Shown one piece after another: positions 7,260 through 64,000 of a DNA stretch of 64,000 bases. This stretch comes from Spiroplasma endosymbiont of Polydrusus cervinus (GTDB taxonomy: Bacteria; Bacillota_I; Bacilli_A; Mycoplasmatales; Mycoplasmataceae), in NCBI RefSeq assembly GCF_964019755.1, contig NZ_OZ026469.1, forward strand, positions 310,001 through 374,000, written 5' to 3'. The notes beneath the pieces were generated by a model that was not told where the DNA came from, did no database searches, and was given only the letters and a program-made list of their open reading frames with translations. Position numbers and translations under genes: made by a program. The stretch's first letter is position 1; every line of letters starts with the position of its first letter.

Positions 7260-7524
7260 GTATACTGTAAAACTAAATCATAAAAAGTTAATAAAATTAT
7301 AACAAATTAAAAATAAAAAACAATAATCGCAAAAAATTTTTTTAAATTAAATTAGTGTTTGTTAAGATTAGTAAAATTTATTTTTTGTTGTGTTTAATTT
7401 TATAATTTTAAAAATAAATATTAAAAACAATATTTTTAATTTAATATTTTTTGCGATTATTGTTTTTTATTTTTAATTTGTTATAATTTTATTAACTTTT
7501 TATGATTTAGTTTTACAGTATACA
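7260..7524. mobile_element. IS30-related mini-element (MITE-like) upstream of fib
   Basis: 265 bp with long terminal inverted repeats that start GTATACTGTAAAACTAAATC and extend about 80 bp (through TTATAACAAATTAAAAATAA). The interior keeps only the last bases of the IS30-A transposase gene. It is therefore an internally deleted derivative that cannot move without a transposase in trans. It lies 170 bp upstream of the fib start and between fib and the ABC ATPase gene. Confidence 0.75.
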
Positions 7525-30938: not shown

Positions 30939-31311
30939 TTTTTATGTGGTGTATACTGTAAAACTAAATCATAAAAAGTTAATAAAATTATAACAAATTA
31001 AAAATAAAAAACAATAATTACAAAAAATATTAAATTAAAAATAAAAAACAATAATTACAAAAAATATTAAATTAAAAATAAAAAACAATAATTACAAAAA
31101 ATATTAAATTAAAAATATTGTTTTCAATTTAATATTTTTAATTTAATATTTTTTGTAATTATTGTTTTTTATTTTTAATTTAATATTTTTTGTAATTATT
31201 GTTTTTTATTTTTAATTTAATATTTTTTGTAATTATTGTTTTTTATTTTTAATTTGTTATAATTTTATTAACTTTTTATGATTTAGTTTTACAGTATACA
31301 CCACATAAAAA
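30939..31311. repeat. 373-bp near-perfect palindrome built from R1 ends
   Basis: Two R1 arms (GTATACTGTAAAACTAAATC..) face each other around a short loop near 31123. Each arm contains three tandem units of about 37 bp (AATAAAAAACAATAATTACA...). The inverted symmetry extends 12 bp beyond the R1 ends into flanking sequence (TTTTTATGTGGT / ACCACATAAAAA). It separates a lipoprotein gene from a truncated aldolase-like gene. Confidence 0.85.
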
Positions 31312-57008: not shown

Positions 57009-57747
57009 AAAGTGTGAAAAAATATGAAAGATTAGATTTTAATGAAAGAGTAAATTTGGAAAAATTAAAAGATAATGAATTATTTAAAAAGGAAAATAGA
57101 ACAATTAATATTCGAAAAATTGCTAAGCAAATGAATAAAGATTATAGAGCTATTTGGCAAGAGTTAAATATGTTTGATAATATTAATAATTATAATGCTG
57201 CAAAAGCACAAAGAAATACATGATAAAAATAAAAAACAATGTCGTAAATATTCAATGTTAAATTCACAAGAATTAAGTAATTTTTCTAATGAATATAATA
57301 ATTTTTTTCGTTCGCCACAAAATATTATTACTTCGTATGAATTACAATATAATGTAAAATTTGGTGTATGTTTTAAAACAATGTATAAATATATTAAATT
57401 AGGTTATTTTAATTTAAAAAAAGAAATGTTATATATTAAAAATAAAAAAAGAAAAACAAAAAATAGGGAACAAAATGATAATCGTGGAAAATTACTTAAT
57501 ATTAGAGATTATAAGCAATTTTTAAATGATTATGGAAATGATTTAAGTTTTAGTGGAATTTGAGAAATGGATACTCTTGATTGTGGTAATTTTTATTTGT
57601 TAGTTTTAGTAAATCGTAAATCAAAAATACTTTTTTATCATATTTTATTTAGTAAAAAGGCAAGTATTATAGATAGATAGACTGCATCCAAAAAAGTAAG
57701 TAAAGAAAAAAAGTCTTTGCTAAACTTTAAAGGAGGTGCATTTTTAT

Positions 57748-58011
57748 ATGGCAAGAAAAGGACAAAAATTTAATAAATATACGGCATATTTTCGAAAAAT
57801 GATAGTACAAGAGGTTAAAAATAATAGTATAAGTTTTATTGCAAAAAAATATCAAATTAATAAAAAAACTGTTGCTTCATGGTATGAAAATTTTAAGAAA
57901 GGAATTTTAAACACCAATAAAGGTCCAAAAGAATCATTTGAAAAAAGAGATTTAAACTATTACAAAGTTAGGTATGAATTACTAAAAAAGCTTCATGACT
58001 TTTACAATTAA
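57748..58011 (+). CDS. IS3-A transposase OrfA, copy 8
   Basis: Same protein as copy 2; slippery site intact. Confidence 0.87.
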   Translation: MARKGQKFNKYTAYFRKMIVQEVKNNSISFIAKKYQINKKTVASWYENFKKGILNTNKGPKESFEKRDLNYYKVRYELLKKLHDFYN

Positions 58012-58868
58012 ATAAAAGAAAAATTGTATCTTTTATCAAAGAAAACATTAATAAATATCCACTAAATTTATTACTTGATATAACAGATTTAAAGCGTAGT
58101 TATTGAGATAAATATAAAAATTATTCAAGTAATGGTAAGGATAGCGAATCATTAAAAAATATTGTAAAAGTCTATGAAGAAAATTTAAAACAATTTGGTT
58201 ATCGTCGAATTACCAAATATTTAAAAGAAGATTATGGCATTATTTATAATGCTAAGAAAGTATTGCGAATTATGAAAGAAAATAATATTCAAGCTGAATA
58301 TGTAAAGCGTATGCGTAGAAAAATATTAATAAAACAAAATAGAAATAAAAATATAATTAAATATCCTGATTTAGTAAATCGTAATTTTAATGATATTAAA
58401 GAAAGATTTTCAATTTTATTTACTGATGTAACTTATTTAATTTGAAATGGTAAAAAACATTATCAATCAACAATACTTGATGGATATACTAAAGAAATTA
58501 TTGATGTAAAATGATCAAAATTTAATAATAACAAACTTGTACTTGATAATTTAAATGATGCAATTAATAAAATTAAAAAAATAAAAAAATATTTAAATAA
58601 AATAATAATTCATTCAGATCACAGATATCAATATACATCTAAAGATTACAATAGTAAATGTTTAGATAACAAAATTATAATTTCAATGGGTAAAAATTAT
58701 CATTGTGCAGACAACATTATTATTGAAAGTTTTCATTCATTACTTAAAAAAGGAACAATCCATAATAAAAATTATAAATCTCATAATGAATATATTAATG
58801 ATGTTAAAAAATGAAATAAATGATATTCAAACCAAAAAGAAAAATATATAATAAATGAAAGTTTGTAA
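57981..58868 (+). CDS. IS3-A transposase OrfB, copy 8
   Basis: The second Asp motif reads HSDHRYQY (Gly to Arg beside the catalytic Asp), which may reduce activity. Confidence 0.84.
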
Positions 58869-60308: not shown

Positions 60309-61196
60309 TTACAAACTTTCATTTATTATATATTTTTCTTTTTGGTTTGAATATCATTTATTTCATTTTTTAACATCATTAATATATTCATTATGAGATT
60401 TATAATTTTTATTATGGATTGTTCCTTTTTTAAGTAATGAATGAAAACTTTCAATAATAATGTTGTCTGCACAATGATAATTTTTACCCATTGAAATTAT
60501 AATTTTGTTATCTAAACATTTACTATTGTAATCTTTAGATGTATATTGATGTCTGTGATCTGAATGAATTATTATTTTATTTAAATCTTTTTTTATTTTT
60601 TTAATTTTATTAATTGCATCATTTAAATTATCAAGTACAAGTTTGTTATTATTAAATTTTGATCATTTTACATCAATAATTTCTTTAGTATATCCATCAA
60701 GTATTGTTGATTGATAATGTTTTTTACCATTTCAAATTAAATAAGTTACATCAGTAAATAAAATTGAAAATCTTTCTTTAATATCATTAAAATTACGATT
60801 TACTAAATCAGGATATTTAATTATATTTTTATTTCTATTTTGTTTTATTAATATTTTTCTACGCATACGCTTTACATATTCAGCTTGAATATTATTTTCT
60901 TTCATAATTCGCAATACTTTCTTAGCATTATAAATAATGCCATAATCTTCTTTTAAATATTTGGTAATTCGACGATAACCAAATTGTTTTAAATTTTCTT
61001 CATAGACTTTTACAATATTTTTTAATGATTCGCTATCCTTACCATTACTTGAATAATTTTTATATTTATCTCAATAACTATGCTTTAAATCTGTTATATC
61101 AAGTAATAAATTTAGTGGATATTTATTAATGTTTTCTTTGATAAAAGATACAATTTTTCTTTTATTTAATTGTAAAAGTCATGAAGCTTTTTTAGT
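60309..61196 (-). CDS. IS3-A transposase OrfB, copy 9
   Basis: The second Asp motif reads HSDHRHQY, the same Gly-to-Arg change as copy 8, which supports a common origin of the two composites. Confidence 0.84.
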
Positions 61197-61429
61197 AATT
61201 CATACCTAACTTTGTAATAGTTTAAATCTCTTTTTTCAAATGATTCTTTTGGACCTTTATTGGTGTTTAAAATTCCTTTCTTAAAATTTTCATACCATGA
61301 AGCAACAGTTTTTTTATTAATTTGATATTTTTTTGCAATAAAACTTATACTATTATTTTTAACCTCTTGTACTATCATTTTTCGAAAATATGCTGTATAT
61401 TTATTAAATTTTTGTCCTTTTCTTGCCAT
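61166..61429 (-). CDS. IS3-A transposase OrfA, copy 9
   Basis: Same protein as copies 2 and 8. Confidence 0.87.
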   Translation of the reverse strand: MARKGQKFNKYTAYFRKMIVQEVKNNSISFIAKKYQINKKTVASWYENFKKGILNTNKGPKESFEKRDLNYYKVRYELLKKLHDFYN

Positions 61430-62093
61430 ATAAAAATGCACCTCCTTTAAAGTTTAGAAAAGACTTTTTTTTACTTACTCTTTTGGGTGCAGTCTATCTA
61501 CTATAATACTTGCCTTTTTACTAAATAAAATATGATAAAAAAGTATTTTTGATTTACGATTTACTAAAACTAACAAATGAAAATTACCACAATCAAGAGT
61601 ATCCATTTCTCAAATTCCACTAAAACTTAAATCATTTCCATAATCATTTAAAAATTGCTTATAATCTCTAATATTAAGTAATTTTCCACGATTATCATTT
61701 TGTTCCCTATTTTTTGTTTTTCTTTTTTTATTTTTAATATATAACATTTCTTTTTTTAAATTAAAATAACCTAATTTAATATATTTATACATTGTTTTAA
61801 AACATACACCAAATTTTACATTATATTGTAATTCATACGAAGTAATAATATTTTGTGGCGAACGACCAAAATTATTATATTCATTAGAAAAATAACTTAA
61901 TTCTTGTGAATTTAACATTGAATATTTACGACATTGTTTTTTATTTTTATCATGTATTTTTTGTGCTTTTGCAGCATTATAATCATTAATATTATCAAAC
62001 ATATTTAACTCTTGCCAAATAGTTCTAGAATCTCTATTCATTTGCTTAGCAATTTTTCGAATATTAATTGTTCCATTTTCCTTTTTAAATATT

Positions 62094-62250
62094 TTAGGAG
62101 CAATCGGATTAACAGCAACAAGTACAACATCATTAATTAGTTGCGAAAAACCAAATAATAGTGAAAACGGCGAGTAATAAACCAGAACCCAAACCACAAC
62201 AACCACCAGTTGGAAGTAATTGAAAGTTAATTGAAGATTGTAAATTACGC
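62094..62250 (-). pseudogene. Lipoprotein remnant lacking its start
   Basis: ATSTTSLISCEKPNNSENGE, frameshift, NKPEPKPQQPPVGSNWKLIE: same as 56761-56933 but fused to IS30-A instead of its own signal start. Confidence 0.55.
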
Positions 62251-63333: not shown

Positions 63334-63395
63334 GTATATACTGTAAAACTAAATCATAAAAAGTTAATAAAATTATAACAAATTAAAAATAAACA
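63334..63395. repeat. Solo R1 repeat end
   Basis: GTATATACTGTAAAACTAAA ... TTATAACAAATTAAAAATAA. Confidence 0.6.
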
Positions 63396-63503
63396 GCACA
63401 AGTTTAGCCCTATAAATATGACCATACTTTGTATTATATTATCTTATACTTCATGGATACCCTAAAAAAGCAATTTCACTCGGATTGTTTTTTTTTATTT
63501 TAT
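63396..63503. other. No gene recognised
   Basis: Short minus-strand open stretch (NPSEIAFLGYPW..) without a start or known family; probably a gene remnant. Confidence 0.3.
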
Positions 63504-63532
63504 TTGCTTTTTCTAAAAAAAGAGATTATGAT
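63504..63532 (+). promoter_or_regulatory. Promoter of the riboswitch/BMP transcript
   Basis: -35 TTGCTT (63504-63509), 17-bp spacer, -10 TATGAT (63527-63532), just upstream of the aptamer. Confidence 0.6.
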
Positions 63533-63556
63533 GTAAGTATAAAAATAAATGATATA

Positions 63557-63621
63557 CCTGTATATATTAGTAATATGGTCTAGTGTTTCTACGTCTTACC
63601 ATTGGAAAAAGACACTATAGG
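63557..63621 (+). ncRNA. Purine (guanine-type) riboswitch aptamer
   Basis: 65 nt three-way junction: P1 CCTGTA / TATAGG; P2 ATTAG / CTAGT with loop TAATATGGT; J2-3 GTTTCTAC; P3 GTCTT / AAGAC with loop ACCATTGGAA; J3-1 ACTAT. The base equivalent to position 74 of xpt is C, which predicts guanine/hypoxanthine rather than adenine. Confidence 0.85.
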
Positions 63622-63687
63622 TTAATGCTTTTGCTTTTTAAACATTAACCATTCATTTTAATTGAAGATACCAGGTTGATTTTTTTT
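63620..63687 (+). promoter_or_regulatory. Riboswitch expression platform (antiterminator/terminator)
   Basis: Antiterminator hairpin GGTTAATG (63620-63627) / CATTAACC (63643-63650) shares its first G's with P1. The alternative terminator pairs ATTAACC (63644-63650) with GGTTGAT (63674-63680), followed by seven T. Ligand binding should stabilise P1, free ATTAACC and terminate. Confidence 0.65.
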
Positions 63688-63724
63688 GTTTTTAGGAACA
63701 TTAAGTTAAAAAGGAGCAAATTTA

Positions 63725-64000
63725 ATGAAAAGAATTTTACAAAGTTTAATGATTATAAGTATTGCGGGGACTTCAGCTAGCAGTCTTATTGCTTGTATAA
63801 AAAAATATTATTTTGATAGTAGTATTTGAGTTATTATTGATGGTGGGACTATTACTGACCGTGCTTTTAATCAATCGGCATGAGAAGGGGCAAGTAAATA
63901 TGTTGTTGCCCAAAAAAATAACGCGATTTTAAGATTACAATGAAAAACTTCAGATTGACGAGCAAGTTATTTTGAATCAGTTAGTCAAACACCTGGTGAT
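63725..64000 (+). CDS. BMP-family nucleoside-binding lipoprotein (3' end outside window)
   Basis: Signal MKRILQSLMIISIAGTSASS with lipobox SLIAC; after it WVIIDGGTITDRAFNQSAWE then GASKYV, matching the D-x-G-x-x-x-D-x-x-F-N-x-S-x-W-E-G start of BMP/PnrA nucleoside-binding proteins. It would feed purine nucleosides to an ABC importer encoded downstream. AAAAAGGAG precedes the ATG. Control by a guanine riboswitch fits this role. TGA encodes Trp. Confidence 0.85.

Follow-up and report, generated by a model that had tools for sequence, protein, structure and literature searches.

The window, i.e., the whole stretch of DNA that was analysed (64,000 nt, G000:C1:310001-374000), is part of a genome of a Spiroplasma endosymbiont that is assembled as a single contig of 1.12 Mb. 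At the right end of the window a lipoprotein gene is preceded by a leader in which a promoter, an aptamer and two alternative hairpins can be traced. The features are as follows, all on the forward strand.

63504-63532, +, probable promoter, read directly: -35-like TTGCTT (63504-63509), 17 nt, -10 TATGAT (63527-63532)
63538-63637, +, purine riboswitch aptamer, full RF00167 match, 52.1 bits with a gathering score of 37
63556-63562, +, P1 5′ strand ACCUGUA
63566-63584, +, P2 AUUAG/CUAGU (63566-63570/63580-63584) with L2 UAAUAUGGU
63585-63592, +, J2/3 GUUUCUAC, guanine type, with U47 (63586) and U51 (63590)
63593-63613, +, P3 GUCUU/AAGAC (63593-63597/63609-63613) with enlarged L3 CCAUUGGAA in an A.A mismatch
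63614-63615, +, A73 (63614) and C74 (63615)
63616-63622, +, P1 3′ strand UAUAGGU, its GGU common to the antiterminator
63620-63650, +, antiterminator hairpin GGUUAAUG/CAUUAACC (63620-63627/63643-63650), -9.1 kcal/mol
63644-63688, +, intrinsic terminator AUUAACC/GGUUGAU (63644-63650/63674-63680) followed by eight U, about -5.6 kcal/mol
63725-64000, +, BMP/PnrA-like lipoprotein gene, first 92 codons in the window, 466 aa in the genome (L002:2726-4126)

The 466-aa product matches PF02608 with an E value of 1e-15 (58 bits, cut-off 24.1) and has a lipobox-like N-terminus, SSLIAC, whose Cys24 is invariant in the orthologs. Its relatives by sequence in the PDB include TmpC/PnrA and other BMP proteins. 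Nucleoside-contact residues of a PnrA-like protein are named in PMC12892991, and D45, F48, N49, G293, D316 and K334 of the Spiroplasma protein align with PnrA, with the Phe one column off and one Asp uncovered. The gene is under purifying selection (dN/dS 0.19-0.30). Thus the proposal of the earlier note that the leader precedes a BMP nucleoside-binding lipoprotein gene is borne out, the function being putative. The mollicute Mycoplasma agalactiae has a similar PnrA-like lipoprotein, P48, which belongs to an ABC nucleoside transporter; the P48 pocket residues D..FN, G, D and K can be placed in the window lipoprotein (PMC12892991).

A covariance search with the RF00167 (Purine) model, proposed in the earlier note as a check, gave a score well above threshold. 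The match covers the full model, positions 1-102, with an E value of 5.9e-6 when the window was searched with all families, and it is the single copy in the 1.12 Mb genome. Other, weak Rfam matches (AilA_thermometer, STnc410 and others) fall below their cut-offs and were set aside as chance. With xpt numbering, which is our own placement on the Rfam alignment, the pocket is of the guanine type: U22 is at 63563, U47 and U51 are in J2/3, and the ligand-pairing position is a C, C74 being the guanine-selecting residue. J3/1 is ACU and has no insertion. U51 is present in all 137 parsed aptamers of the order, and among these 137 each of six inner P1 positions and five P3 positions is paired in 88-96%, with several pair types per position. 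P2 has one pair in which both sides have changed among the orthologs. Position 73 varies within the genus and is A in the window and G or U in the BMP leaders of relatives (L034, L044, L058 and others). The full-length match, the pocket residues and the three-way junction are shared with the guanine type of RF00167; the differences are an L3 of 9 nt instead of 7 and the U.U and A.A mismatches at the loop bases. The window RNA is very probably a guanine riboswitch (purine class I), as the earlier note had proposed. It is located in the 5′ leader of a PnrA-like nucleoside-binding lipoprotein gene that stands alone, and would turn this gene OFF upon guanine. It is a riboswitch of an already known kind, and the pocket residues point to guanine as its ligand.

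The promoter matches only 8 of 12 consensus bases and is not listed by a simple scan, yet its -10 sequence is kept in 10 genomes of the genus. All 8 pairs of the antiterminator are formed in 10 of 10 orthologs and its strands are invariant; because it never varies, its support is conservation and not covariation. The terminator is weak and AT-rich, with 7 pairs of which 2 are G-C and a loop of 23 nt, and it is missed by a standard short-loop scan. Its cells are 97% paired among the 10 orthologs, with variation on one side (U-A/U-G) and one pair broken in two genomes. Covariation is scant in these ten close orthologs, with 39 of 500 shuffles reaching the observed score, and the strands of P1 and of the terminator have been replaced by other sequence in G164 and G176. 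Promoter, antiterminator and terminator, all three claimed previously, can be retained, the promoter as a probable and the terminator as a weak one.

The helices share strands. GGU is common to the P1 3′ strand and the 5′ strand of the antiterminator, and CAUUAACC is both the 3′ strand of the antiterminator and the 5′ strand of the terminator. With guanine bound, P1 would be held and the GGU of its 3′ strand would be unavailable to the antiterminator; CAUUAACC would then pair with GGUUGAU, and the U-run would then halt RNA polymerase. At low guanine the GGUUAAUG/CAUUAACC antiterminator would form, allowing the receptor to be made. Computed apo energies in the window are -24.5 kcal/mol for the antiterminator state and -18.7 for the alternative, i.e., the antiterminator is favoured by ~6 kcal/mol, which fits the requirement of an OFF switch. 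However the apo energies calculated for ortholog L066, and marginally those for L058, come out in favour of the OFF state, and for this reason we only infer the OFF direction. The minimum free energy structure also pairs the P1 5′ strand with 63667-63676, a pairing only partly kept among orthologs. The leader appears to be a transcriptional OFF switch that works by mutually exclusive helices, judged from the strands and their conservation. A known system of this sort is yxjA (nupG) of Bacillus subtilis, in which guanine turns OFF a nucleoside transporter gene through competition between P1, a central helix and the terminator (PMC9756952). Alike are the guanine aptamer, the transcriptional OFF logic and the control of a nucleoside-uptake gene. 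However yxjA controls a nucleoside transporter protein and the window switch a binding lipoprotein of an ABC system, and in the window the terminator is weaker and AT-rich and L3 is longer.

Both loops had been described earlier as unusual. This holds for L3, which is 9 nt as opposed to the usual 7 and lies within an A.A mismatch, but not for L2, which is essentially the canonical AAUAUGG within a U.U mismatch, the position below the loop being A-U in some orthologs (L062, L034). A 7-nt L3 is usual but not strictly defining; RF00167 treats the extra nt as an insertion and the score is still above the cut-off. P3 plus L3 measures 21 nt in the window and 19 nt in the standard form. With the leaders labelled by sequence keywords, so that gene names are approximate, P3 plus L3 spans 20-22 nt in the BMP leaders (12 of 12) and NCS2-permease leaders (9 of 9) of the genus, and 19 nt in the hpt leaders (8 of 8) and in 7 of 9 guaB leaders; the other two guaB leaders are shorter and one further guaB leader could not be parsed. 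Within the genus the enlarged L3 is thus found in all BMP and NCS2-permease leaders, and no scored hpt or guaB leader has it. Outside the genus the aptamers are mostly short, with 16-18 nt in P3 plus L3.

Two G-C pairs are possible between L2 and L3 (GG 63577-63578 with CC 63599-63600), and none of the 12 BMP leaders of the genus lacks the L2 GG or the L3 CC, so the loop-loop docking is probably retained. The enlarged L3 together with the A.A and U.U mismatches could make this docking weaker. An internal CC..GG pairing inside L3 was also considered but is absent in G171, G164 and G176, and was rejected. It is conceivable, but rather unlikely, that the enlarged-L3 aptamers are a tuned subtype restricted to the leaders of purine-uptake genes in this Spiroplasma genus, in which an altered docking shifts the folding speed or the guanine threshold. 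If this were so, the guanine level that elicits a response would differ between uptake and synthesis genes. The L3 loop differs within one genus according to the type of gene under control, and sister genera have shrunk it, 2′-dG-I being one such case; the set of 138 aptamers is material for testing the evolution of docking against ligand and gene.

RF00167 was found in 61 of 320 genomes of the order, with two to four copies in each of the 13 other genomes of the genus. The leader and BMP gene are orthologous in 11 of these 13. A DNA pattern locates the orthologous region in Spiroplasma phoeniceum and S. poulsonii. The region is also present on plasmid pSciBLH13-1 of S. citri, and the gene that follows it there carries the annotation BMP family ABC transporter substrate-binding protein. 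The window genome therefore falls within the S. citri/poulsonii group. The riboswitch and BMP gene have the ATPase gene of a nucleoside-type ABC transporter directly after them in G164 and G176, and the longer stretch read from G164 continues with permeases of 720 and 304 aa. Transporter genes are likewise downstream of P48, and the part of that source available does not mention a riboswitch (PMC12892991). In the window genome the ATPase and two permease genes are at C1:30923-35548 and have no purine aptamer. The lipoprotein would deliver nucleosides to this ABC transporter encoded elsewhere in the genome, a supply over a distance suggested by the gene arrangement. A second BMP gene (~C1:185303-186655, 47-49% identity) has a leader that carries a MITE and no aptamer. 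No paper describing guanine riboswitches in Spiroplasma was found in the literature searched, and the locus adds a well-supported pair of guanine riboswitch and nucleoside receptor in this genus.

The guaB gene of relatives carries a guanine riboswitch. GMP reductase (guaC) is present in the window genome with no second IMPDH-family gene beside it, and guaB is therefore gone. The sole PF00860 gene (G000:C1:926892-928048, L165) is uracil-permease-like and contains a stop and a frame change that interrupt it; since we take it to be UraA-like, the NCS2 permease that is under riboswitch control in relatives is missing. The hpt gene is present without an aptamer. Thus the BMP leader is the last guanine riboswitch left.

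Upstream, at 63388-63492, is the 5′-truncated copy of a conserved candidate non-coding RNA gene of ~145 nt, intact for example at L193:2469-2613. In nine relatives this unit is nearly invariant and lies directly upstream of the riboswitch promoter. The unit comprises a promoter of its own (TTGAAT, 16 nt, TATAAT), an intrinsic terminator and a long closing helix; its fold has z = -3.6, and no Rfam family matched it. In the window copy the 3′ part is kept and the promoter and 5′ arm are replaced by the end of a MITE-like repeat. This RNA gene is separate from the riboswitch and may be the more novel object.

The loss of every other guanine riboswitch of the genus from the window genome, the weak terminator and the upstream RNA gene cut by the MITE would be consistent with a relic aptamer, in which binding or switching has decayed as the genome shrinks, leaving the gene to plain expression from its promoter. 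This is very unlikely, in that the pocket residues are all intact, the antiterminator strands do not vary and the lipoprotein gene is under purifying selection. It is also highly improbable that the switch is turned ON by guanine or acts on translation. Purine riboswitches of both directions exist (PMC9295807) and the start codon is 44 nt 3′ of the terminator stem; however the 3′ strand of P1 overlaps the antiterminator and not the terminator, and the ribosome binding site AAAAAGGAG is outside all helices.

A 2′-dG-I or 2′-dG-II riboswitch that resembles a guanine one, a variant hinted at in the earlier note, is extremely improbable, even though L3 departs from the consensus and the same order has many 2′-dG-I RNAs, some before lipoprotein genes. 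In 2′-dG-I aptamers the residues that correspond to 22, 51 and 74 are C, and L3 is of 4 nt (PMC8872408). The Mesoplasma florum type (RF01510) shares with the window RNA the three-way junction and the bacterial family, but has a J2/3 of the GACCCGCC type, as seen, exactly or nearly, in ten 2′-dG-I loci of sister genera read as a positive control. The window aptamer has GUUUCUAC there, U22 in place of C22, and U at 63590 in place of the C at position 51/58; since its L3 is longer, opposite to the 4-nt loop of 2′-dG-I, the hint is unsupported. The 2′-dG covariance models agree. RF01510 has no match at E<=10 in the genome and is absent from 14 of 14 genomes of the genus, and the same search finds many in sister genera (33 of the 60 family genomes have matches). 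RF03165 (2′-dG-II) likewise has no match at E<=10, and the window RNA lacks C51 and the J3/1 insertion.

Several repeats are found in the window and elsewhere in the genome. The MITE-like palindromic repeat, with ends GTATACTGTAAAACTAAATCATAAAAAGTTAATAA, has 18 ends in the window (e.g., 7260-7294, 30951-30985 and 63336-63370); it is also found in the hpt leader and in that of the second BMP gene. A motif that seemed to be shared by the hpt and upp leaders, TTGGAGCTT..GATGCCTTTTT, is a dispersed repeat with ten copies in the genome and was rejected as a leader motif. The dispersed repeat TTGGAGCTTCATCGTACATGATGCCTTTTT is at ten places in G000 (e.g., C1:849440-849469), some near phosphoribosyltransferase genes, where it was probably placed by mobile-element spread. 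The region flanking the locus has IS3-type transposase fragments (family assigned by eye) in two near-identical inverted copies, 57736-58868 and 60309-61441, and a truncated second transposase at 61475-62206. In sister genera (e.g., L017, L019, L026, L098) 20 purine aptamers have U at position 74 and are of the adenine type; these precede purA, permease and other genes in Mesoplasma-related mollicutes.
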